From an uncultured Bacilli bacterium (GTDB lineage: Bacteria; Bacillota_I; Bacilli_A; RF39; UBA660), in the NCBI GenBank assembly GCA_910586425.1, contig CAJUHL010000014.1, positions 1-38,892 on the forward strand: a stretch of 38,892 nt of DNA. Direction: 5' to 3'. The notes beneath the pieces were generated by a model that saw nothing but the letters and a program-made list of their open reading frames with translations, was not told the origin of the DNA and did no database searches. The position numbers and the translations under genes are program-made. Shown here one piece after another: positions 2,937 to 29,209 of the stretch. The first letter of the stretch is position 1. Every line of letters begins with the position of its first letter.

Positions 2937-5153
2937 CTAATTTATACATATTTTTTTTAATTTCTGACATAAACTCGTTTTACGAATTCTTTCATTGTTA
3001 TTTGAAACACTATAAACAAATGCCTGTGGTTCTCCAATTAAAATCAACTTTCGTTTGGCTCTGGTTATTCCAGTATAAATGAGTTTACGATATAACATTC
3101 TATAATAAGACATACAAATAGGTAAAACAACCATTTCAAATTCGCTACCTTGAGATTTATGGATACTAATAATATAACCATGTTTTATTTTAGAAAAATC
3201 TTTGGGCAAATACTTCACTTCTAATCCATCATAATCCACATAGATTTCATTTTTTTTACTTTTGCTTTGTTGTGCAGGAATAATGTATTTAATGATCCCA
3301 ATATCTCCGTTGAACACGTTTTCATCTGGCATATTGACTAGCTGCAATACTTTATCATTTTCTCTAAATATCACATCACCTACTTGGATTTCCCTTTTCC
3401 CTTCTTCCTTTGGATTCCATATCATCTGCAATATTTGATTGAAACGATCAATTCCGTTCATCCCAGCATACATAGGTGCCATGACTTGTACTCTTTTATA
3501 ATCGTATCCTTTTTCAATTAACTGTTCTGTTAATTTTTGCAATGTTGGGCCAATTTGCTCTGATGAACAATTTAAAAATGTAAAATCATTGGTGGTATTC
3601 AAATACTGATTACTCAACTGATTATTTTTGATTTCTTCTGCCAAAACAGGAATATAAGAATCGGTACTTTGTCGATATAATAACTCCAAAGGAACTGTAG
3701 AAATACATTCACTTAATAATAAATCCTTTAGAACTTGACCAGGACCAACGCTTGCAAGTTGATTGGCATCCCCAACCAATACCAATTGAATATTGGAAGT
3801 GAGTCCTTTTAGCAAATGGCCAAATAATTCAACATCAATCATACTCACCTCATCAACTACAATTAAATGTTGCAAAGCAGGATTCCATTCATTGACTGCA
3901 AACTCATTGTTATCTTTATTCCATTTTAAAAATCGATGGATGGTTGTAGCTGGAAATAAGGTAGACTCCATCATCCGTTTACTCGCTCTTCCTGTAGGTG
4001 CCAACAAAGCAATTTGTTTCTCCGCTTCTTCTGCCGTCAAATGATTGAGACTCTGATACAATTCTACAATCGCCTTAATAATGGTCGTCTTACCTGTCCC
4101 TGGTCCTCCTGTAATAATGGTAATATGTTTTTGAAGTGCTTCTTTAATCGCCTTTTTTTGTGCTTCATTATATTCCATTTGTTGTGTATGTTCTAATATT
4201 TTTATTTTTTCATCCAAGGTTTGATTGATGGAATCTTTCTTTTGTAATAATGTTGAAATTCGCTTTACAATATATTGTTCTGCTTCATAAATGGCTTTTA
4301 AATAATAATATCCTTCTTCTTCTATCAATTTATGTTCCAAACACAAGTCCTTTATATTGGCTTGAAAGACATCTTTGTCCATTTCTGCATGAAAAAATTG
4401 ATTACAGTTTTCATATATTTCCTCTAATGTAAAATAAGTATCTCCTGTTTCAAAAGAAAGTTTTTTACAAATATGTAATAATCCTGCTTTGATGCGTCTT
4501 TCATCCATTGCATCCATGTTTAATTTTAGAGCAATGGAATCCACTTTTGTAAACGTAATTTCCTCAACATCGTCAATGGTTCTATAAATATTATGCTCCA
4601 ATTCTAGAACAGTATTACTCTTATAACAATGATAAATCGCCAAAGCATCTTTCATAGAAAAACCAAGTTCTGTTAAGTACACGATCGTTTTATGACTTTC
4701 TTCATATTGTGTTAAGTGATCATAAATCTGTTTTTGTTTTTGATAAGAAAGTTTAGGAACTAAATTTAAACATGCTGGTTCTTCTAAAATACGCTCTAAA
4801 GTTTGGTCACCTAAAACTTCTACAATTTTAGTTGCCATTTTCTCCCCAATTCCTGGAAATAAATCACTAGATAAAAAGGCAATAATACCATCTTTGTCTT
4901 CTGGCTTCATATGCTCACATTCTGTTACCTGAAATTGAAAACCATATTTAGGATGTTGAACAGTTTCACCATGTAATAAATAGATGTCATCTTCCTTTAA
5001 ATCTGCAAAATATCCAGTAAAAGTCAATGTTTTTTCAATATAATCCTTTAATTCTTCATCGTTAGTTTCTTTGACCTTTAATATGCCAATTACAAAGCCT
5101 TTTTCAGAAGAAAAAATACTTCTTTTATAAATTCCTTTTACATATTTCTGCAT
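2937..5153 (-). CDS. recD2: ATP-dependent RecD2-type DNA helicase
   Basis: 738 residues, the usual length for RecD2, the 5'-3' superfamily 1B helicase of bacteria without RecBC. The N-terminal OB-like and helix-hairpin-helix part (residues 1-330; for example FPGIGEKMATKI near 99-110) is followed by Walker A GGPGTGKT at 349-356. Further motifs are an APTGRA box near 385-390, Walker B VVDEVSMID at 432-440, GDANQLASVGPG, motif V SIHKSQGSEF and motif VI GITRAKRKLILIG near the C-terminus. In Bacillus relatives RecD2 acts in mismatch repair and replication-fork maintenance. The ATG follows AGGAA and the gene stands alone between terminators. Confidence 0.96.
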   Translation of the reverse strand: MQKYVKGIYKRSIFSSEKGFVIGILKVKETNDEELKDYIEKTLTFTGYFADLKEDDIYLLHGETVQHPKYGFQFQVTECEHMKPEDKDGIIAFLSSDLFPGIGEKMATKIVEVLGDQTLERILEEPACLNLVPKLSYQKQKQIYDHLTQYEESHKTIVYLTELGFSMKDALAIYHCYKSNTVLELEHNIYRTIDDVEEITFTKVDSIALKLNMDAMDERRIKAGLLHICKKLSFETGDTYFTLEEIYENCNQFFHAEMDKDVFQANIKDLCLEHKLIEEEGYYYLKAIYEAEQYIVKRISTLLQKKDSINQTLDEKIKILEHTQQMEYNEAQKKAIKEALQKHITIITGGPGTGKTTIIKAIVELYQSLNHLTAEEAEKQIALLAPTGRASKRMMESTLFPATTIHRFLKWNKDNNEFAVNEWNPALQHLIVVDEVSMIDVELFGHLLKGLTSNIQLVLVGDANQLASVGPGQVLKDLLLSECISTVPLELLYRQSTDSYIPVLAEEIKNNQLSNQYLNTTNDFTFLNCSSEQIGPTLQKLTEQLIEKGYDYKRVQVMAPMYAGMNGIDRFNQILQMIWNPKEEGKREIQVGDVIFRENDKVLQLVNMPDENVFNGDIGIIKYIIPAQQSKSKKNEIYVDYDGLEVKYLPKDFSKIKHGYIISIHKSQGSEFEMVVLPICMSYYRMLYRKLIYTGITRAKRKLILIGEPQAFVYSVSNNNERIRKTSLCQKLKKICIN

Positions 5154-8514: not shown

Positions 8515-9219
8515 TTATAATATCGATTCTAAAGCCAATTCAATCATTTTTAAAAACGATGTTTGTCTTTCTTTACCAGTCGTTTCCTCATTTGTAATAA
8601 GATTATCAGATACAGTTAAAATACAAGCAGCCCTCTTATTACATACTTTTGCATTATGGAATAAAGCAAATGACTCCATTTCTACAGCCAAACAACCATA
8701 TTGATGATATAACTCTAAATAATTATTTGTTTCATTATAAAACACATCACAACTATGTATATTGGCAATTGTAATAGGAAAGTTTAAAGCTTCAGCGGTT
8801 TGTTTAATGACTAAATTCATACTATCAGATGCATATAACATGTGATCTTCTGTTCCATTTTGGGTTTTGGCATAACTAGATTCAGAATAAGCCCCATTGA
8901 CCAAAATTAAATCATATAAATTGAGATCTTTTGTATATGCCCCACAAGAGCCCACTCGAATAATTTTTTCGACACCATATACTTGAAATAACTCATAAGA
9001 ATAAATTCCCATACTAGGCATTCCCATCCCTGATCCCATTATGGTAACTTCTTTTCCTTTATAATATCCTGTATATGCGTACATATTTCTAAGCTGATTC
9101 ACCAATTTATAATCCTCTAAATAAGTTTCTGCAATCATTTTAGCGCGCAAAGGATCTCCTGGCATAATAACAGTTTTTGCAATTTCACCTATATTTGCTT
9201 CATTATGTGGTGTTGCCAT
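8515..9219 (-). CDS. deoD: Purine-nucleoside phosphorylase, DeoD type
   Basis: 234 residues, the normal length for hexameric DeoD. The ATG at 9219 is chosen because AAGGAGGTAG precedes it; an upstream ATG-containing frame adds 11 unlikely residues. Motifs seen are the phosphate-binding VIMPGDPLRAK, GSGMGMPSMGIYSYEL, the ribose and base contacts AVEMESFALF, and TVSDNL with the catalytic Asp. It splits purine nucleosides with phosphate to the base and ribose-1-phosphate for salvage. It sits between the DUF1016 gene (46 bases upstream) and ymfF (40 bases downstream). Confidence 0.97.
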   Translation of the reverse strand: MATPHNEANIGEIAKTVIMPGDPLRAKMIAETYLEDYKLVNQLRNMYAYTGYYKGKEVTIMGSGMGMPSMGIYSYELFQVYGVEKIIRVGSCGAYTKDLNLYDLILVNGAYSESSYAKTQNGTEDHMLYASDSMNLVIKQTAEALNFPITIANIHSCDVFYNETNNYLELYHQYGCLAVEMESFALFHNAKVCNKRAACILTVSDNLITNEETTGKERQTSFLKMIELALESIL

Positions 9220-9265
9220 TTTATCTACCTCCTTATTTATTATAGCACGCAAACGATTAATTCGA

Positions 9266-9709
9266 TTATAATTTTTTCTGCAACATTTGTAATTCTGTCA
9301 ACATATAATCGACTTGTAAAAAAGAAAGACATTTTTTCTTACATACTATCAACGAATAAGAATATTTATAATATCTCATTAATAAAAAATTTCTTTTCCA
9401 CTGTTTTCTCTTTTTCAATAAATATAAATGTTGATGCCACATAATAAATTTTAAATAGTGCAAATTACTTTTAGAATACACTTGATAAAATTGCATCATC
9501 AGTATCAAATTTCTTTTGGTAAAACCAATTATAATCCCATACTGTTTCTGCAATTCCCATTCTAATACTTTAAGCATATGAATCGGAATGTTTTTACAAA
9601 GGTAACAGCCGATTTGATAGTAAAGGAATATCAAAATGCCATTATCAATAGGATGACTCAAAGCTTCTAAAATATACAAATTAATTTGTTTGATATCTTC
9701 TTTTTTCAT
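9266..9709 (-). CDS. Stand-alone DUF1016 N-terminal (YhcG_N-like) domain protein
   Basis: 147 residues from the ATG at 9709, which has AAAGGAG ahead; the open frame further upstream lacks a site. The pattern FLYYQIGCYL ... LEWELQKQYG ... GFTKRNLILMMQFYQVY ... WHQHLYLLKK is that of the DUF1016 N-terminal domain, a helical, probably DNA-binding region. In the full family it is followed by a PDDEXK nuclease domain; here the protein ends before it. The tail is very rich in Lys and aromatic residues. It may be a DNA-binding remnant or a lineage-specific short form. Family call by eye from the RNL-MxxFY pattern. Confidence 0.65.
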   Translation of the reverse strand: MKKEDIKQINLYILEALSHPIDNGILIFLYYQIGCYLCKNIPIHMLKVLEWELQKQYGIIIGFTKRNLILMMQFYQVYSKSNLHYLKFIMWHQHLYLLKKRKQWKRNFLLMRYYKYSYSLIVCKKKCLSFLQVDYMLTELQMLQKKL

Positions 9710-9956
9710 AGTCCACTCCTTTATATTAACAATATAAAGAATGTTAGACCAATTGTCAAAGTATAAAAATAAAAGATCAGAAGATAAAAAAAGACAAATT
9801 AATAATTTGCGGTAATACATTATTTGAATTTAGAATAGTAAGAAACTGCAAACTGAAAAAGAACGTTTTTTTAAATATTTTACTCAAAAAAATCATCATT
9901 TAATTGTTGAACAACTAAATTTATTTTATGAAAACACTTTTTTACAAAAACAGATG

Positions 9957-19351: not shown

Positions 19352-19900
19352 TTATTTTGCAGAAAAAATGCTATTGATAGATGGGAATCTTTTTAAGACT
19401 TCATCTATGTTTGTTTCAATTTGGTTCATCATTGTTTCATTGTAATTTGATTTTCTTGTAAATGATATTTCATAAGGTTTAAATGTGATGGTAAATGCAT
19501 TTTCATGTTCTGATCCTACATCTTCTCTGTCTCGTTTAAAATTCAAATTCATTTTAATCTCTAAACTACTCATTTCATTTAAACCTTTTTCCTCTATTGT
19601 TTCTTCAAATTCCTGTAAATTATGACAAGTAGTACTACTATACATTTTTCCTCTCAATGTGATTTCAAAAAATGTACTTCCCTTTTTAAAACTATAGTTA
19701 TATTCTCCATGTTGTCCTTTATTTTTTTCTACTTCTTCTGTAAGCGCAATAAATTTATTGTACTCATCGCAACAATATTGTACTAAATATTGAATACATT
19801 CTCCTGTTGGCACAATTGTTGAATAATAATGTTGATTCTCAATTCCAAATGGTGTATTTTCATCCATATAGTTGTTCACTTTTCCACTCCTTCTTTCCAT
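19352..19900 (-). CDS. Unknown soluble protein, first gene of the TfoX operon
   Basis: 182 residues, not recognised. AGAGGTTG precedes the ATG at 19900. The sequence is mixed alpha/beta, without signal peptide or membrane segment. The segment SSLEIKMNLNFKRDREDVGS followed by FTITFKPYEISFTRKS looks like paired beta strands, and the C-terminal ETNIDEVLKRFPSINSIFSA is helical. No catalytic pattern is obvious. It is transcribed with the TfoX-domain gene 9 bases downstream. Confidence 0.6.
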   Translation of the reverse strand: MERRSGKVNNYMDENTPFGIENQHYYSTIVPTGECIQYLVQYCCDEYNKFIALTEEVEKNKGQHGEYNYSFKKGSTFFEITLRGKMYSSTTCHNLQEFEETIEEKGLNEMSSLEIKMNLNFKRDREDVGSEHENAFTITFKPYEISFTRKSNYNETMMNQIETNIDEVLKRFPSINSIFSAK

Positions 19901-20036: not shown

Positions 20037-20067
20037 AAAAGGCAGATATTATTTCAATCTGCCCTTT
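20037..20067 (-). terminator. Terminator at the end of the DGR-target operon
   Basis: GGCAGAT (20041-20047) pairs with ATCTGCC (20057-20063), with flanking A and T runs. It overlaps the stop of the VWA gene at 20049 and closes the leftward operon that begins at 25.9 kb. Confidence 0.8.
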
Positions 20068-21368
20068 GTAGATGGTACTTGTATAGAAAATAATCTTTCT
20101 AATTGCGATTCTGTTATTAAGATAACCTTTCCACAACAAGGATGAAAATTTGGATTTCCATAAACTAACCAAATAATATTTTCATTTTTCAAATCTTCTT
20201 TTGGCATATTACCAGGTCCAGGAATTCCATCTGTAAACACAATTTTATTGATTTCTTTTTTTCTTGTAAAGGAACGAACGGCTAAATCCCAATCTTCTGT
20301 CTGTGCAGAACGTCCACGAGCTCCCGCAGGAATTTCAAAATGATCAATGTCTGAATTCGCTTTCACTTCTACCATTCCCCAAAACTTTTCATTAAAACAT
20401 CCTACTTTTAGTTTTGAGTGTTTCAATAAAGGTTTTAACATTCTTAAAAATGCTTTTACTAAATCTAAATCTACAGATCCTGACACATCAATTAATACTT
20501 CTGTTTCTGCTTCATCTTCTATATCATTTTCTTCTAATCGATAAGCGTAGTTATTTTCCGCAATTGAACGTCTTTGGCTCCAAATGGTCTCTGTTTTTTC
20601 TACCTCTTTTCGAACCAAAATTCTCCAATCTATTTCATGTTTACTTTGGCCAACTTCTCCCAAAGAAATTTTTTCTGATAAATTATCACCTATATTTTTA
20701 AGTACCTGCTCTTTGGCATGTTCTAAGTTTTCTTTTGCTTTTTGAATTCGTTCTTTTCTATTTTCCGAAAATTCTACACTTTCATCTATTTCTTCATATG
20801 AAAAATCGTTGGAATCAAATGAATCTTGTTGTTTTTCAAATGCTTCTTCCCATAGACTATGATCATCACCTAAATGCTTTCCGTCTGTCTGTTCTCCTTT
20901 TTGATTATCATCTTTCTGTGATGTAGATTCTTGCGTATTCTTTTGTTGTTCCTTTTCCTTTAGTAAAATTTCATAAAATTCATTGGCAGAATAATGTAAA
21001 GCCTCTGGCCGATTGACATAACCTTCTTTTATATGAAAACCATCACGCTTTAAATTAGCGTTTATAATCGCATCGGTTGCCTCATTCCATACATCCAAGT
21101 CTTTCTTCTCACCGTTTTTATCATTTAATCGAAAAACATGGGCAAATTTAATATGCAAAAATTCATGTGCAACTAGAAAAATTCTGTCTTCCTCATTTAA
21201 GCTTGCAAAATACTCTGGATCCAAGTAGATTTCTTTTCCATCTGTTGCAGCAGTATGATATTTTAAGTCAGATTTATAAGATATATGAGTTTGAGCAATC
21301 TCACTTCCAAGACGGGAATAACGGATTAATAGAAGTCTTTTGATATCAGATATTAAATGTTCATTCAT
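20049..21368 (-). CDS. HEXXH metallopeptidase-like plus VWA domain protein (DUF2201/COG3864 type)
   Basis: 439 residues from the ATG at 21368, which has AGGAG ahead. The N-terminal domain carries a zinc-protease motif HEFLH at 68-72 inside FLVAHEFLHIKFAH, followed by DVWNEATDAIINANL; this is the putative metallopeptidase domain of DUF2201. A long charged linker (about 135-245) leads to a C-terminal von Willebrand A domain with the MIDAS start DVSGS at 294-298. In family members this pairs with a MoxR-type AAA+ ATPase, as it does here: the ATPase is two genes upstream. The pair resembles RavA-ViaA or CbbQ-CbbO, in which the ATPase remodels a target recognised by the VWA partner. Confidence 0.88.
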   Translation of the reverse strand: MNEHLISDIKRLLLIRYSRLGSEIAQTHISYKSDLKYHTAATDGKEIYLDPEYFASLNEEDRIFLVAHEFLHIKFAHVFRLNDKNGEKKDLDVWNEATDAIINANLKRDGFHIKEGYVNRPEALHYSANEFYEILLKEKEQQKNTQESTSQKDDNQKGEQTDGKHLGDDHSLWEEAFEKQQDSFDSNDFSYEEIDESVEFSENRKERIQKAKENLEHAKEQVLKNIGDNLSEKISLGEVGQSKHEIDWRILVRKEVEKTETIWSQRRSIAENNYAYRLEENDIEDEAETEVLIDVSGSVDLDLVKAFLRMLKPLLKHSKLKVGCFNEKFWGMVEVKANSDIDHFEIPAGARGRSAQTEDWDLAVRSFTRKKEINKIVFTDGIPGPGNMPKEDLKNENIIWLVYGNPNFHPCCGKVILITESQLERLFSIQVPSTKGRLK

Positions 21369-21379
21369 ATGATAAACTC

Positions 21380-21763
21380 CTAAAATGCAACAACACAAAA
21401 GCGGTAAAGATCACTTACAATTTTTTGTACCGATGCTCTATCTTTAACAGTAAATACAATAATTACATTAGAAGGTAGAAAATAACCACCCATTTCCCTA
21501 TCTTTTACAAGTCCAACATAACGTTTCTGCAATTCTTCTGAAATTACATCAATTCCTCTAATCACAAAATATGTAATTTTTCCATTTTGAGCTAACAAAT
21601 TCATTTTTTCTTTAAAAATAGGTTCAGAATAACAAAATAAATATGCACTGTCCATTCCAGCATCCATCACTAGTGTTTGTCCTAAATTTCTATACGCCTC
21701 ATCTAAAATGACACAACAAGTTGCTTTACATCCTCTTTGTAACTCTATTAACGCCTTATTCAT
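21380..21763 (-). CDS. Small third component between the AAA+ ATPase and VWA genes
   Basis: 127 residues. Start and stop are tightly packed: four bases overlap with the ATPase gene and 11 bases precede the VWA gene. The second half (GKITYFVIRGIDVISEELQKR, shown only to here, then GGYFLPSNVIIVFTVKDR) reads like the Walker-B to sensor-1 part of an AAA+ core, but the acidic Walker-B residues are replaced (FVIRGID) and there is no Walker A. I infer a degenerate P-loop protein or adaptor that works with its neighbours. I do not recognise a named family. Confidence 0.6.
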   Translation of the reverse strand: MNKALIELQRGCKATCCVILDEAYRNLGQTLVMDAGMDSAYLFCYSEPIFKEKMNLLAQNGKITYFVIRGIDVISEELQKRYVGLVKDREMGGYFLPSNVIIVFTVKDRASVQKIVSDLYRFCVVAF

Positions 21764-23673
21764 CTTCTCTTTCCAACTCCTTCACTTTGTGTAGTATGAT
21801 AAGCCATAGCTAGTTCCTTCAATTCATTAATCTTTACCATTTTATTTTCATCTGTACCAATCCAAAGCAAGTCATAAAGTTCCCGGTATTCTGGATCACA
21901 ATATTGATTGATGAAAGTTCTACAGATTCCAACTTGGTTCTCATCAGCTAAAAGTAAAGAGATCATGCATGCGAATCGTTCATTGATATTTCTTGGTAAA
22001 TCCGCCTGTGTATAAGTTTCCTTCACCACTTCTTCTACTGTAAGTGTAGGAATATTATAAAAGTTTAAAAATTCAGCTGCCCACCCCTCTCGGAGTTTTG
22101 TACCAATCGATATTTGCAATAAATTTTCTACGTTTTTTCCAATCAATTTTCCCGCGATTAAATCCTTTTCAAATGCATATAGTGTGTTGGAAATGGAAAC
22201 CCAACCACGTGGATCATTGGTTCTACCATGACAATCATATCGATCCAAATGTTTCTCACCAACTTCAGGTTCTTCATAGAAATAATCCATATTACAAATT
22301 TTTTCACTTCTACCTTTTTCTATATATTTTGAAGCAATATACCCGATAACAGCAGGATGTACTTGGTTTGGAATTGCATATTCATAAATCCATTCTCCTA
22401 CATGTGGTTCCATATCAAAAATATGATCAAATCTTTTTTCAAGCGGTTCTGCTACATCCTCTGCAACATTCGAATATTTCTTTTGGTTACCAGTGGCAAC
22501 AATCACAGTATTCGCTGGCAATTTTAATCCCTTACCTGTTTCTACCAATCTATTTAATACCAAGGTATAAACCAAACATTGAACGGCAGGTTTTACATTC
22601 AATAATTCATCCAATAAAATGACAATTTTTTTAGTACTTGTCTTGGATCTTTCATAAATCGTATCCGCTATTTCATAAAGATTCTGTATATTGTCTTGTA
22701 CCATTTTTCTTTCTGCATCAGTGGCACAAGACAAAAGTGCCTGTTTCGCAAAATCAGGAGGAATATTTTGACCTGTTTGGAAGTTCATAGATCCTACTAC
22801 TTTTTCAGGAAGCATATTATTGGTTAACTTAATATAAATTAAATCTGGATAAAGTGTTTTAATACGTTCTGTTTTTCCAATTCCAGAAGGTCCTCTTAAA
22901 AGAACAGATTGTCCAGCTTCAATCCAATTATGGATGATTTCAGTATCCGTCATGTTACGCCTTTCTGATGGAACGGTCGTATCAGGATTCAGTTTTTGCA
23001 ATCTAGTTTCTCGCTTCAATCCTGATGTATTTATATTTATGTTTTCAGATGACTTCGATAATCTTTGTATGGCTTCAAGTGCTTTTGCAAAACAGTTATC
23101 CAAATATTTTTTGATATCCGTTTGTTCAAAATTTCCTGTATAATTACTGACATGATTGAATTGTACACCTGCAAACAATATTTTTTTTGCCACTACTTCA
23201 TGCTTTTGTTCATCCACCAACCATTTGATTGGTTCAACTGCTATCCAATAAGGTTTATTTATTTGTACTTTGCTGCCATCTGATAAGGTTTCTCCCTTTG
23301 CATTTTTGTCACCCAAAAAGCGAATATATTTCTTACCCCTATATTCGTACGCAATATGATTTCGTTTTTGAAATTCTATATCATAATCACTGATATCAAC
23401 AGAATCAGTTGGAAACTCGATATCTGTTTCCTTTAGTGTTTTTCTTTGATATTCCGTTTCTAATTGTGTTGCAATCGCACTTTCTACCACAGTTTGTGGC
23501 CATTCAAAGCACTCAACTTCAAAAACTCCACTAGCCCCTCTCACTTCGTTCGAGGAGATAGAAGAGATGGATGAGTATGGTAAAGCTGGACGCGCCCCAA
23601 CATTGCGCGTTACTAACAGTGTTTTAGTAACTATTACCGTAACTGTCAACGACGCGCGCGTCATTATCCCCAT
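21760..23673 (-). CDS. MoxR-type AAA+ ATPase with diversified N-terminal region (main part of the DGR target gene)
   Basis: 637 residues as read. Residues 1-25 lie in the variable repeat in a shifted frame and have no ribosome site, so the natural start is the ATG at 23869 (separate entry). From NVGARPALPYSSISS on, the protein follows the DUF6273/FGE-like domain that ends C-type-lectin folds, then a second module at about 50-200 (YWIAVEPIKWLVDE, LFAGVQFNHVSNYTGNFEQT). The AAA+ domain has Walker A GPSGIGKT at 261-268, Walker B VILLDELLN at 351-359, sensor 1 ATGNQKKY at 393-400 and arginine finger region EPLEKRFDHIF at 409-419. It overlaps the 127-residue gene by four bases. The ATPase likely remodels a target recognised by the variable domain. 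The frame break is explained by one extra base in VR. Confidence 0.82.
   Translation of the reverse strand: MGIMTRASLTVTVIVTKTLLVTRNVGARPALPYSSISSISSNEVRGASGVFEVECFEWPQTVVESAIATQLETEYQRKTLKETDIEFPTDSVDISDYDIEFQKRNHIAYEYRGKKYIRFLGDKNAKGETLSDGSKVQINKPYWIAVEPIKWLVDEQKHEVVAKKILFAGVQFNHVSNYTGNFEQTDIKKYLDNCFAKALEAIQRLSKSSENININTSGLKRETRLQKLNPDTTVPSERRNMTDTEIIHNWIEAGQSVLLRGPSGIGKTERIKTLYPDLIYIKLTNNMLPEKVVGSMNFQTGQNIPPDFAKQALLSCATDAERKMVQDNIQNLYEIADTIYERSKTSTKKIVILLDELLNVKPAVQCLVYTLVLNRLVETGKGLKLPANTVIVATGNQKKYSNVAEDVAEPLEKRFDHIFDMEPHVGEWIYEYAIPNQVHPAVIGYIASKYIEKGRSEKICNMDYFYEEPEVGEKHLDRYDCHGRTNDPRGWVSISNTLYAFEKDLIAGKLIGKNVENLLQISIGTKLREGWAAEFLNFYNIPTLTVEEVVKETYTQADLPRNINERFACMISLLLADENQVGICRTFINQYCDPEYRELYDLLWIGTDENKMVKINELKELAMAYHTTQSEGVGKRR
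23586..23660 (-). repeat. DGR variable repeat (VR)
   Basis: 75 bases matching the 74-base TR at 25179-25252. In coding sense there are nine substitutions, each at a TR adenine (A to G twice, A to T five times, A to C twice), plus one extra base near 23608 in a CGCG run. The ends are invariant and GC-rich: CGCGCGCGTCGTT at the 5' side and CGCAATGTTGGGGCGCGTCC at the 3' side, the latter acting as the homing (IMH-like) end. It retains a TAA at 23624-23626. Confidence 0.93.
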
Positions 23674-23869
23674 CTGAAGTTCTAGTCCACCACAAACCAG
23701 TACGGTCTTTTAATGTCCTTCCTTCACTTGTATATATATCATTTGCTACATAACCGCCTAATAAAATAGCAAAATCTGTAATAGCACATTTTGTTCCATA
23801 TTGTTTAAAGATATCTAATTGTTTATCCCCAAATATTTCATTTTGTTCTAAAAATGTAAAATCAAGCAT
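23624..23869 (-). CDS. 5' part of the DGR target gene (DUF6273-like, ends in VR)
   Basis: 81 residues; GGTGGTGA precedes the ATG at 23869. The run IFGDKQLDIFKQYGTKCAIT, then LGGYVANDIYTSEGRTLKDR and TGLWWTRTSDGDNDARVV is the opening of a DUF6273/FGE-like (C-type-lectin related) domain, the fold used by most DGR targets. The frame stops at a TAA inside VR, right where homologous domains would go on to NVGARPALP; that continuation is present downstream in another frame. The frames of the two parts differ by one, and VR is exactly one base longer than TR. So this and the ATPase frame are one gene, interrupted in this allele by a stop and a one-base insertion. Confidence 0.85.
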   Translation of the reverse strand: MLDFTFLEQNEIFGDKQLDIFKQYGTKCAITDFAILLGGYVANDIYTSEGRTLKDRTGLWWTRTSDGDNDARVVDSYGNSY

Positions 23870-23931
23870 AGTTAATCACCACCTATATCATAACATAATT
23901 TTGCTAATTGTAGACATTTTTTTACAATTTT

Positions 23932-24951
23932 TTAACGATTTAACAATATATCTTTCCATTTCGAACAATCACTTGTCTTTTTAATATGATTATAAAATGC
24001 ATTTTTTCGTACCAACACATAAGTATCATCAACCACACCCTTACGATATAACTTACCCAATGTTTTTAAATGTTTCTTCATTCTTTGTTTAGAAGAATAT
24101 CTTAATTTCATGATAATTCTCCCACTAGAACTTACAATATGACGATATCCTAAAAAATCAATTCCATTTTTTACCATACCAATTTGTGTTTTTTGATTGA
24201 GCTGTAAATCTAAAACAGTATTACATAATCTATTTATTTCATTTTTACAATGTGATAAAAACTTTTTATCTCTATGGATTAGTATCATATCATCCATATA
24301 CCTTACATAATGTTTTACTTGCAATACCTCTTTGATATAACGATCTACTACATTCAAGTAAAAAAGCGCAAACCATTGACTCGATTGATTTCCAAGCGGT
24401 AGTCCTCTATCTGCATAATCTGGCTGTTCCTGAACTAATTTTCGGATCAACCACATTTCATCTTCAGAAAAATCAATTTTTTCTAATAAATGAATTAAAA
24501 TATCATGATGGATACTCGGAAAATATTTATGAATATCACATTTTAAAAAATAAATATGATTGTTATTTTCCTTGCGATATTCTTTTCTTAAAAATTGATG
24601 TAAGCGATTGATTGCAAATGTAGTACCTTTTCCCTTTCGGCAAGCACAGTTATCATAGATCAGTTTCTTTTCTATGTTTGGTTTTAAACAAACATCACAA
24701 AAACATCTAATGACTACTCTATCTTTAAAAGGTAAAGCTTCTATTAATCGTTCTTTTGGTTCATAAATATAAAATTTTTTGTATGATCCTAACTGGTATT
24801 GTTTAGTCCAAAGCGCATTCATTAAACGATATAAATTGATGGCTAAATCAGTTTCAAAACGAATGACCTCACCTTTATGTTGTTTTGATTTACGACAATT
24901 TTTATATGCCGTATATAAATTTTCAAACGTAAAGATTTCCTCTATTTGCAT
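23932..24951 (-). CDS. DGR reverse transcriptase
   Basis: 339 residues. RT motifs are in order: FLKCDIHKYFPSIHHD (catalytic Asp139), the DGR-specific motif 4 GLPLGNQSSQW at 183-193, where DGR RTs have a GNxxSQ core in place of the usual PQG, and YMDD at 218-221. A thumb region follows (GIDFLGYRHIVSSSGR). There is no maturase X domain or nuclease domain as in group II introns, and no retron-type NAXXH/VTG pair is visible. With Avd it copies the TR RNA, misreading adenines, and the cDNA replaces VR. It lies between TR and its target. Confidence 0.95.
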   Translation of the reverse strand: MQIEEIFTFENLYTAYKNCRKSKQHKGEVIRFETDLAINLYRLMNALWTKQYQLGSYKKFYIYEPKERLIEALPFKDRVVIRCFCDVCLKPNIEKKLIYDNCACRKGKGTTFAINRLHQFLRKEYRKENNNHIYFLKCDIHKYFPSIHHDILIHLLEKIDFSEDEMWLIRKLVQEQPDYADRGLPLGNQSSQWFALFYLNVVDRYIKEVLQVKHYVRYMDDMILIHRDKKFLSHCKNEINRLCNTVLDLQLNQKTQIGMVKNGIDFLGYRHIVSSSGRIIMKLRYSSKQRMKKHLKTLGKLYRKGVVDDTYVLVRKNAFYNHIKKTSDCSKWKDILLNR

Positions 24952-25252
24952 ACGTTACTCCTCTCAAAAAAAAGAAACACCCCTGATAACGCCCAAAGAA
25001 TGATTCCATTCGTTGTTTGTGTGAGTGTTCATGTATTTTTCCATCGCACTAAGAATTCTCTTTTAGCGGTTAGAAAAGAAGAAAATTCCTTCACCTTACA
25101 ATACGGACCTATTTTACATAAAATAAATTTCTCTGATCTGTTTTCTAGATTTGATTTCAAATCTCTTCAAAAGTGAATCTGGACGCGCCCCAACATTGCG
25201 TTTTCTTACATTGTTTTAGTTACTATTACCGTTTTTGTTAACGACGCGCGCG
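24952..25252 (-). ncRNA. TR RNA with spacer leading to the RT gene
   Basis: From TR to the RT start is 227 bases without a gene. In studied DGRs the RNA just downstream of TR folds, binds RT-Avd and primes cDNA synthesis, so a structured role is expected here. I see no simple strong hairpin by eye; the role is inferred from position. Confidence 0.45.
25179..25252 (-). repeat. DGR template repeat (TR)
   Basis: 74 bases, same orientation as VR. In coding sense it has 27 adenines, many in AAC, AAA and AAT codons (reading Asn-Lys-Asn-Gly-Asn-Ser-Asn-stop-Asn-Asn-Val-Arg-Lys-Arg-Asn-Val). The in-frame TAA is at 25216-25218. No ribosome site or start codon; it is a non-coding template between avd and the RT gene. 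Confidence 0.93.
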
Positions 25253-25330
25253 AGCACACCAAAAGGGGCAAGAACAAAAACGCACAACTAAAAATTTTCT
25301 CCTTAATTAAAGATTTTTCAATCTAAAATC

Positions 25331-25915
25331 CTAATTTCTTTTACGCCATCTTTCATCATCACTCTTTTTCCAAGCAACAATTAAATTGATGGCTTCTGCT
25401 AATTGAATGGATATTTGCTTATATTGCTTTTTTAAAATACAATTAGAGTCTTCCGCAATCATCGCAACATACCCTAAAAGTTTTAACTTTACAATTGCTT
25501 CTTTTTGAAGCTGTTCTCGGCTTATTTTATTGGTTCCAGAGTCCATTCGAATCAAATTAGCTTCCAACAACAATTCTAATGTATCTAAACAATAATTCTG
25601 CATTCTATTCACAAATACGCCTCTAAACTTTTTAGGGGATTTTTCCGTCACCGCAATTACATAAGCACCCAACTTCTTTACAACCGTAATTACCATTAGA
25701 TCATTTGCATTGAACGGAATCTTGGAAATTCTTTCCAATTCCTGATCTTCTATTTCTAATTTTTCTCTTAAAGTATTTATATTTATTTTTTGTTCATTTA
25801 CACGGGCAAGCGCTTTTTTGATTGCAATGGCATCATCTATACTATTTGCACTTGTTTCATATTGTTCTACTTGCTTTGGTATTTTTAAACTACCATTTCT
25901 ATTTACCTGCAGCAC
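25331..25915 (-). CDS. avd: DGR accessory protein Avd with N-terminal extension
   Basis: 194 residues with a GTG start at 25915 (CAGGAG upstream; the nearby ATG runs straight into TAG). From about residue 85 it is the four-helix-bundle fold shared by Avd and the rRNA intervening-sequence proteins: KKFRGVFVNRMQNYCLDTLE, LLEANLIR, EAIVKLKLLGYVAMIAEDSN, and a last helix with QYKQISIQLAEAINLIVAWK. The five-subunit Avd barrel binds RT and nucleic acid and is needed for adenine-directed mutagenesis. The first 70-80 residues, with a helix-rich REKLEIEDQELERIS segment, are extra compared with the 120-130 residues of classical Avd and no inner start with a ribosome site explains them away. Confidence 0.8.
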   Translation of the reverse strand: MLQVNRNGSLKIPKQVEQYETSANSIDDAIAIKKALARVNEQKININTLREKLEIEDQELERISKIPFNANDLMVITVVKKLGAYVIAVTEKSPKKFRGVFVNRMQNYCLDTLELLLEANLIRMDSGTNKISREQLQKEAIVKLKLLGYVAMIAEDSNCILKKQYKQISIQLAEAINLIVAWKKSDDERWRKRN

Positions 25916-25937
25916 TACATCACAGCTCCTGATTGGT

Positions 25938-25943
25938 ATTATA
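25938..25943 (-). promoter_or_regulatory. -10 element ahead of avd
   Basis: TATAAT on the minus strand, about 22 bases ahead of the GTG start. No strong -35; the best hexamer at 17 bases is AT-only. Likely promoter of the whole DGR-target operon. Confidence 0.45.
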
Positions 25944-26171: not shown

Positions 26172-26247
26172 TGGTGTTCCCGACAGGACTCGAACCCGTA
26201 TCGGTCCCTTAGGAGGGGACTGCTCTATCCTGCTGAGCTACGAGAAC
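26172..26247 (-). tRNA. tRNA-Arg (anticodon CCT)
   Basis: On the minus strand: acceptor GTTCTCG pairs with CGGGAAC, D arm GCTC...GAGC, anticodon arm GTCCC-CTCCTAA-GGGAC (anticodon CCT), T loop TTCGAGT, encoded CCA. It stands alone, right upstream of the DGR locus. Confidence 0.95.
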
Positions 26248-28045: not shown

Positions 28046-29209
28046 TTACAGTACAATTCCATGAAATGCCATATAAATTAGAAATACTGTAAAAATAATA
28101 GTCAAAATCCATCCATTGATTTTTTCAATACGTGTAGATTTATAAGGAACACCAACTGCCATAGTAAGTAGATATCCCCCAATCAATCCTCCAATATGAG
28201 CTGCATTATCAATTCCAGAAATCGTAAAACCAATAATCAAATTAAGCGCAATTAAAGGAATAACTTGGGATTTTAAGACTGTTCCTAAATAGATACGGTA
28301 ATGATACCCAAAGAACAACAATGCTCCAAATAATCCAAATATCGCTCCACTTGCTCCTGCACTAATAAAATTAGAAAAGATAATGGATAATAAATTTCCC
28401 ATGACAGCACTTAACAAGTAGACAACAATATATTTGAATCTCCCTAAAAAACTTTCAATTTGTGACCCAATGACATAAAGCGCATAATTATTCAGAAAAA
28501 AATGCAACAATCCAATATGAACGAAAGCACTAGTCAGTAGTCTATAGTACTCACCATCACGTACTCTTGCTCCATAGTTTGCTCCAAATTCAATTAAAGT
28601 AGAAACATCCCTACTACCTTCCCCTAATAGATACATTGCCAAAAAGACAACCGTATTAATGGCAATCAGAAGGTATGTCATAATTGGTTTTTTTTGCTCA
28701 AATACATGTTGGGCCTTCTTGGATTCTTCCTCATTTTTTTTACTAATATCCTTTGTAATTTTCATAAACAATTCTGCACCTTTTTCTTTAAAGGCTATTT
28801 TTTTTGTAATTGTTGGAAATTCTTCTATGATAAAAGGATACTTTTTCAAATCTGATACTTTTTGAATATTGGCACAACTAATATTTCCAAAATGCATATA
28901 TTCATCCATATGCACACTTTCTCCTAAATTCAAAAATAACGATAAAGCTTCCATATGGAAAGAACAAGTTTTCTTCTTAACTCTTTTTAATATTTGTTTG
29001 GTCCTGTATAAATCAAAACTCATTTGTTCATCATTGTGAATATAATTAGATACAATTCGAACAACTGGATATGAATTTTCTAAATTTTCTAACCAAATTT
29101 CGTTTTTTGCACCATGTAATACAATTGGACTATATCCTTGCTCTGTTATGAAAAAATGCAAAAGTTTCATCACAAGTTCGTCACTTTTTTCTAGCATAAT
29201 CTCTTCCAT
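28046..29209 (-). CDS. Rhomboid intramembrane serine protease
   Basis: 387 residues. A soluble N-terminal domain of about 175 residues is followed by six or seven membrane segments. The catalytic dyad is Ser287 in GASGAIFG and His338 in NAAHIGG; the HFFLNNYALYVIG segment holds the oxyanion His/Asn. This is the layout of B. subtilis GluP (YqgP), which cleaves membrane proteins and helps in quality control of transporters, although the C-terminal TPR domain of GluP is absent. GGAGG precedes the ATG. Divergent from the TspO gene. Confidence 0.95.
   Translation of the reverse strand: MEEIMLEKSDELVMKLLHFFITEQGYSPIVLHGAKNEIWLENLENSYPVVRIVSNYIHNDEQMSFDLYRTKQILKRVKKKTCSFHMEALSLFLNLGESVHMDEYMHFGNISCANIQKVSDLKKYPFIIEEFPTITKKIAFKEKGAELFMKITKDISKKNEEESKKAQHVFEQKKPIMTYLLIAINTVVFLAMYLLGEGSRDVSTLIEFGANYGARVRDGEYYRLLTSAFVHIGLLHFFLNNYALYVIGSQIESFLGRFKYIVVYLLSAVMGNLLSIIFSNFISAGASGAIFGLFGALLFFGYHYRIYLGTVLKSQVIPLIALNLIIGFTISGIDNAAHIGGLIGGYLLTMAVGVPYKSTRIEKINGWILTIIFTVFLIYMAFHGIVL

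Follow-up and report, generated by a model that had tools for sequence, protein, structure and literature searches.

We describe here a diversity-generating retroelement (DGR) in a window of 38,892 nucleotides (contig CAJUHL010000014.1, assembly GCA_910586425.1), the whole stretch of DNA that was analysed, from an uncultured Bacilli bacterium which is probably of animal gut origin. The element is a real, chromosomal DGR. Its target, a lectin-like domain followed by a MoxR-type AAA+ ATPase, is interrupted inside the variable repeat (VR), and the stop codon responsible is encoded by the template repeat (TR) itself. DGR-diversified MoxR/vWA systems are already in print and the window carries a variant of them, with the VR at the N-terminus of the AAA+ protein and a third protein lacking a P-loop; the interruption and its encoding by the template are the new point. 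We judge it marginally more probable than the opposite that a DGR with such a template couples diversification to a stochastic OFF/ON switch, rewriting leaving the AAA+ protein OFF more often than ON.

The target gene of the window reads from an ATG at 23869 into the VR and ends there at a TAA (23626-23624); a +1 shift follows, also inside the VR. The lectin-like front and the AAA+ part thus fall in two open reading frames (ORFs) of 81 and 637 aa (Table 1). In the TR, the same codon is a TAA (25218-25216), in the frame given by the GARP anchor. A sequence-only reading of this DNA had placed the VR in the first domain of the AAA+ protein: the N-terminal position of the VR stands, but the target is not one frame. 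The null VR allele, the TR-encoded stop and the P-loop-less AAA+-like fold of the small third protein were absent from that reading.

The alignment of TR and VR in the window spans 78 columns (score 130, next-best region 39). Its 10 mismatches all fall at TR adenines, and a 1-nt gap marks the extra base of the VR. Differences restricted to adenines are taken as a mark of recent DGR activity (PMC3521204). Pooled over 17 TR/VR pairs, differences were found at 199 of 457 adenine sites versus 14 of 872 other sites, in agreement with the expected concentration at TR adenines; when the constant edge base is excluded, 182 of 440 TR adenines (0.41) are mutated. L085 and L124, two loci from sister species, have identical TRs and VRs that differ at 11 sites, nine of these at TR adenines.

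In-frame TAA, TAG or TGA codons inside the variable core occur in 12 of the 24 TRs read in this reverse transcriptase (RT) lineage, at 13 codons, as recounted with a single script. The TAA at the window codon is shared by L085 and L124. A TAA at another codon is carried by L001 and L002, two stops (TAA and TGA) by L087, a TAG by L092, L081 and L082, and a TGA by L005, L014 and L084. The TRs of L076, L077, L078, L079, L080, L083, L086, L088, L089, L090, L141 and L142 have no core stop. Stop-bearing TRs are scattered over several parts of the RT tree, in which support is good for only 7 of 22 inner branches and L001, L084 and L094 have long branches; TAA, TAG and TGA are all represented, and such TRs are also found with divergent AAA+ parts (24-28% identity). 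Left out of the count were L003, L091, L093 and L094, where either no TR turned up or the RT is missing, cut or decayed, as well as L143, at a contig edge, and L144, whose distant RT came without a pair. L091 (G096), with a TAA in its VR, is uncounted because its contig has no TR, and so is a TAA lying past the anchor, outside the core, in L081 and L082. These last two loci (4694-4807 in L081; 4984-5098, reverse complement, in L082) represent a second DGR lineage with an RT 51-53% identical and a different target; the TAG is present in both TR and VR, the frame being open on either side.

Among 30 control loci, no TR has a stop in its core and three have one in the final two codons of the repeat. 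None of the 20 phage/plasmid loci, including BPP-1, has a core stop (L103 and L108 have one in the last two codons), nor have the cellular loci, 10 of 12 of which gave a TR-VR pair (L132 has one in the last codon). Control VRs carry no stop (0/24 phage/plasmid pairs, 0/12 cellular pairs). For the phage/plasmid controls, 30 pairs were found in the 20 loci, of which 25 were kept and 24 computed; pairs of L104 (minus), L114 (plus, twice) and L115 (minus) were set aside as strand-swapped or not fitting a TR-VR pair, the L115 pair and one L114 pair showing a TGA when read as a TR. Also set aside was an L113 pair, the second of this locus, which has no stops. The difference between 12/24 and 0/30 gives P = 8e-6 in a Fisher test, 12/24 versus 3/30 gives P = 0.002, and 8/14 groups of TRs versus 0/30 gives P = 2e-5, all of these values being optimistic because of shared ancestry on both sides.

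At the 13 codons where the TR has a stop, the VR still reads stop at six: TAA in the window and L124, TAG in L085 (from TAA), TGA in L005, and TAG in L081 and L082. A sense codon stands at the others (TGG in L001, TCG in L002, TGT in L014 and L084, TTA and TGG in L087, TGG in L092). The VRs of the window and of L079 are in addition frameshifted, each by one extra base in the A-rich part. Stop-carrying VRs were thus found with 6 of 12 stop-bearing TRs versus none of nine stop-free TRs (P = 0.019), one of these nine VRs (L079) being frameshifted; L076, L086 and L089 have a TR and no usable VR. With the frame preserved, the target of L076 lacks its VR core (near 5094-5110), despite matches to TR, RT and Avd. 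In whole-genome searches, G491, G489 and G003 each showed one strong target match (>900 bits), open over about 690 residues but for one TAA, TAG or TGA, and G489 gave one further, weak match of 20 bits. In G004, the genome of L014, the target match breaks into three pieces, two of which have stops. The VR of L014 is itself open and the AAA+ part lies behind it in three pieces (8622-9841); real decay or an assembly fault are both possible.

From the observed mutation rate of 0.41 per adenine, a TAA, TAG or TGA codon was computed to stay a stop with a probability of about 0.59-0.60. The predicted share of stop-free VRs per round of rewriting is 0.15-0.41 for the eight types of stop-bearing TRs computed versus 0.87-1.0 for three stop-free types. 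The target nevertheless remains constrained behind the VR: between L085 and L124, both interrupted, the ratio of nonsynonymous to synonymous rates (dN/dS) is 0.089 over 602 codons (dS 0.159), and it is 0.17-0.18 between either of them and the window, where dS is near saturation. For the small gene, dN/dS is 0.70 between L085 and L124, at a dS of only 0.039, and 0.27-0.28 against the window. Since the alleles examined in the clade of the window are all null while the downstream part is under purifying selection, the latter must either be expressed on other occasions or have an internal start of its own, and we favour the first option.

In the switch that we propose, retrohoming would rewrite the lectin-like front domain as the sensor. 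With a stop in the TR, OFF would be the most frequent outcome of a rewriting round, and the protein would be ON again only when the adenines of the stop mutate, with a likely new binding surface. Verbatim copies of the TR would be dead and rewritten copies alone expressed; a costly or self-reactive sensor would be kept off by default. That the template itself holds the OFF state, the sensor-motor protein being expressed only from rewritten copies in a cell lottery between OFF and new ON, we rate at just short of an even chance. Such a lottery may be likened to productive versus non-productive antigen-receptor rearrangement, and we infer that the OFF alleles are reversible and useful. By analogy with MoxR/vWA conflict systems, the lectin-like domain may serve as sensor, the AAA+ part as motor and the HEXXH/VWA-type protein as output. 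An AAA+ ring would then display the lectin-like sensors, binding would trigger remodelling that is passed to the VWA/HEXXH protein, and the P-loop-less AAA+-like subunit could cap or regulate the ring as its partner.

Several observations weigh against this switch. Half of the TRs of the lineage (12/24) have no stop and, because TRs are related, the other half shrinks to about 8 of 14 when near-identical TRs are pooled into groups by eye. Frames for the controls were those of annotated coding sequences or of the longest ORF, and some of the controls are similar to one another. A broken RT stands beside 2 of the 12 stop-bearing TRs (L001 and L084), and the AAA+ part of L014 is itself split over frames. 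Among the loci compared, no single species supplied both an ON and an OFF allele, and no switching was seen. In addition, six nulls at 13 codons match the neutral expectation (P of six or fewer 0.32 at 0.565 and 0.25 at 0.59), and therefore fit a tolerated load as well as a switch. Under such a load, which we hold to be rather unlikely, TR stops would be a by-product of TNN/TGN diversity codons, OFF alleles would be dead ends and selection would keep the rarer ON alleles. In this sense TGA stands at sites where other TRs have TGG or TAC, and thus adds diversity; yet a TAC or TGG there would come without the cost, and stops persist in about 8 of 14 TR groups, as three different stop codons and at more than one position. 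A load also fits poorly with the window, L085 and L124 all being null despite a constrained downstream part.

Purifying selection would continue downstream as well if an internal start behind the VR made the AAA+ part separately, the VR stop merely parting sensor from motor, and among 120 homologues listed nine do have a called start behind the VR (inside it in the window). However, the GTG used sits in the loop of a possible hairpin, with no ribosome site seen before it by eye, and 105 of these 120 homologues hold a front-domain motif and Walker A in one chain, which makes this solution improbable. A decaying DGR with a pseudogene as target, which would be in line with broken RT or Avd matches in L001, L077, L083, L084 and L094 and with the split AAA+ part of L014, seems to us quite improbable for the window: RT and Avd are open there and all 10 mismatches fall at adenines, the same being true of L124, and dN/dS of the target behind the VR is 0.09-0.18. 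Finally, a full-length protein could be made anyway by readthrough or suppression of the stop, for which the intact downstream frame is all that speaks. Conserved genes across these loci end in TAA, TAG and TGA alike, so that recoding is unlikely; all three codons also occur as TR stops, and the window allele carries a frameshift too. We regard readthrough as very improbable. The switch encoded by the template is the reading that we retain, at the strength given above.

All parts of the element lie on the minus strand, in the order tRNA-Arg, Avd-like gene, TR, RT, target, 127-aa gene and HEXXH/VWA-type gene (Table 1), and the leftward operon of Avd, TR, RT and VR described from the sequence alone was recovered entire. 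The RT matches PF00078 and carries, as read directly, GLPLGNQSSQ and YMDD, the latter being a mark of DGR RTs; its assignment as a DGR-type RT was therefore confirmed. The SQ motif is another such mark (PMC3521204). The best matches of the Avd-like product are Avd families, both under their curated cut-offs; position and conservation fit, with a counterpart at the same place in L085 (93% identity) and L124 (90%). Flanking genes of the window match those of G491 (HD 87%, TfoX-like 92%, ORF 28046-29209 90%, DUF1848 84%), and the element therefore sits at a stable chromosomal place in the clade of the window. A 182-aa protein without Pfam family (19352-19900) directly follows the operon and has a conserved counterpart in that position in both L085 and L124 (76% identity).

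Table 1. Coordinates of the DGR and its neighbourhood in the window
Feature	Position	Strand	Remarks
tRNA-Arg(CCT)	26172..26247	-	upstream of operon; present in L124 too
Avd-like accessory protein, 194 aa	25331..25915	-	PF22296 bAvd 24.7 bits (cut-off 40); NF033474 29.2 bits (cut-off 80)
TR, non-coding	25176..25252	-	10/10 mismatches to VR at TR adenines
In-frame TAA within TR	25216..25218	-	frame fixed by conserved GARP anchor common to TR and VR
DGR RT, 339 aa	23932..24951	-	PF00078 69.4 bits; GLPLGNQSSQ and YMDD read directly
Target part 1, lectin-like domain to VR stop, 81 aa	23624..23869	-	69% identity to P0009 (residues 4-81)
VR with in-frame TAA (23626-23624) and one base more than TR	23583..23660	-	
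Possible hairpin 3' of VR	23535..23557	-	stem CCTC/GAGG, up to 6 bp including G-U; loop GAACGAAGTGA
ORF with remaining lectin-like domain and MoxR-type AAA+, 637 aa	21760..23673	-	GPSGIGKT, LLDE, VATGNQ; PF07728 23.9 bits (cut-off 22)
127-aa protein, AAA+-like fold without Walker A motif	21380..21763	-	
HEXXH (HEFLH) putative metallopeptidase, C-terminal VWA-like region (DVSGS)	20049..21368	-	PF13203 (DUF2201_N) 72.5 bits; motifs by eye

For the AAA+ part of the target, all 56 aligned relatives match PF07728 (AAA_5) at E 0.01 or better. In 69 close relatives from the protein database, the highest-entropy columns fall in the VR (up to 3.1 bits), the maximum outside it is 2.2 bits, at the C-terminal tail, and block means over the ATPase part (columns 321-700) are 0.01-0.22 bits. 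The variable domain, checked for a C-type-lectin fold, matched DUF6273 at E 0.01 or better in 8 of the 56 members, and in a fold search with the whole target model the matches were taken up by the AAA+ part. Behind the AAA+ gene lie, as had been read, the small protein and the HEXXH-VWA protein. The former has CbbQ and NorQ among its top structural matches, tied with dynein and ClpC modules. The latter matches in Pfam only DUF2201_N and, below threshold, a phage metallopeptidase, the VWA-like region being assigned from DVSGS by eye. In line with the absence of membrane segments in the sequence-only reading, the six window ORFs tested have no long hydrophobic stretch, with a highest 19-residue Kyte-Doolittle mean of 1.56. 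PADLOC gave no family for the 127-aa or the VWA-type protein, and the AAA+ protein was matched only weakly to DolB (27.5 bits). NorQ-NorD and CbbQ-CbbO are MoxR/VWA machines that likewise pair a MoxR-type AAA+ with a VWA-type protein; they are not known to have a DGR or a variable domain.

Two loop sequences of the possible hairpin recur, GAACGNAGTGA being found 19 times (18 loci) and GAACGNAGAGA 10 times (eight loci), a conservation that is partly by construction because the loop served as search pattern. In 14 of the 19 loop-pattern places, which could be aligned, two of the four core stem pairs are invariant and two show two-sided changes; one pair is UA in eight and AU in five, and one of 500 shuffles gave as high a covariation score. 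This four-pair stem with an 11-nt loop differs from the hairpins of phage DGRs, with stems of 7-10 bp and 4-nt loops (PMC3240598).

RT, lectin-AAA+, small and VWA-type proteins adjoin in nine loci (the window, L001, L002, L005, L014, L079, L085, L088 and L124), all with an Avd match, which is in two pieces in L001. The expected presence of RT and Avd beside the target trio in relatives thus holds for these loci, but the association is not exclusive, the target and the VWA-type protein being found without RT in the flank examined in, for example, L004, L007, L008 and L095. In L003, the RT is partial and gave no accompanying Avd match. In a second set of loci (e.g. L076, L080, L087, L090, L092, L142), the RT and lectin domain are similar, the AAA+ part diverges (24-28% identity) and the small protein gave no match. 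The RT was detected at E 1e-60 or better in 11/243, 9/243, 9/391, 12/337 and 2/5 genomes of overlapping sets, and at E 1e-90 in 8/193 genomes of a set that overlaps the others. The named loci belong to uncultured Bacilli, 'Tenericutes' and Clostridia, and for several an animal source such as mouse or chicken is recorded.

Some of these loci show further arrangements. L003 (4801-5020 and 7889-8108) and L004 (4804-5023 and 7889-8108) have identical 220-base stretches around the VR in tandem lectin-AAA+ copies, as if one rewriting product or gene conversion had reached both copies, or by an effect of assembly. In L095 (3443-5092), two tandem lectin-like domains precede one AAA+ part in an open frame of 960 aa; P0003 (962 aa) and P0048 (971 aa), of which only the ends were looked at, are of similar length. 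G168 and G086 each encode a number of lectin-like proteins that stand alone (about 270-370 aa, partly in tandem); the match includes no AAA+ part. In L001, L077, L083, L084 and L094, the broken RT or Avd matches stand beside an intact VR frame, and these DGRs seem to be decaying with one allele frozen.

That similar associations might already be known had been anticipated, and DGR-MoxR-vWA links are indeed in print (PMC7159879, PMC10907252). The VMAP-ternary systems with DGR (Kaur et al. 2020, PMC7159879) resemble the window in a MoxR-type AAA+, a vWA-type protein (putative in the window), a third component and a DGR in one neighbourhood, and in a diversified domain of lectin type (lectin-like in the window). 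As described there, the variable domain is in most DGR cases fused to the vWA protein; in the window it forms the N-terminal domain of the AAA+ protein. The vWA-type protein of the window also includes a HEXXH domain, and its third protein is small, with an AAA+-like fold that lacks a P-loop. Those systems are tied to multicellular bacteria, the present loci to uncultured Bacilli, 'Tenericutes' and Clostridia. The ternary systems of Thiohalocapsa and relatives (Dore et al. 2024, PMC10907252) also have a DGR target beside a MoxR system, read as an antigen sensor, with several targets predicted to be cytoplasmic; the CLec domain is there C-terminal, on separate target proteins, and the available text on these systems does not mention stop codons in TRs. 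In the CLec-AAA ATPase targets of candidate phyla radiation bacteria (cited in PMC10907252), the signal is sensed at the C-terminal region. With the VR N-terminal to the AAA+ part, as here, a null VR therefore removes the motor as well. A ternary conflict role, as the sequence-only reading proposed, or a role in defence may be envisaged by resemblance to these published systems.

DGR templates are described as avoiding stop codons on principle (PMC12875486, PMC4159848, PMC4891356), lysine codons in Treponema being a partial exception (PMC4891356), and an engineered TR with tandem stop codons has served as a reporter (PMC12875486). We found no description of stop codons inside natural TRs in the open-licence literature searched, as far as its text was available; a figure legend of the Treponema paper defines a symbol for stop codons, and a rare natural case could therefore be tabulated there. 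Reversible null alleles from a local mutator would give ON/OFF switching as in phase variation (PMC11868660), with the differences that the null would here be encoded by the template, that each ON allele would be different and that reversibility is presumed.

With a mid-core stop in half of the TRs read, this lineage breaks the rule of stop avoidance, and does so where the VR is N-terminal to an AAA+ motor and a null takes out the entire protein. Should the switch be true, DGRs would both diversify and regulate, and the tolerance of random, possibly self-reactive sensors would become testable by sequencing one VR.

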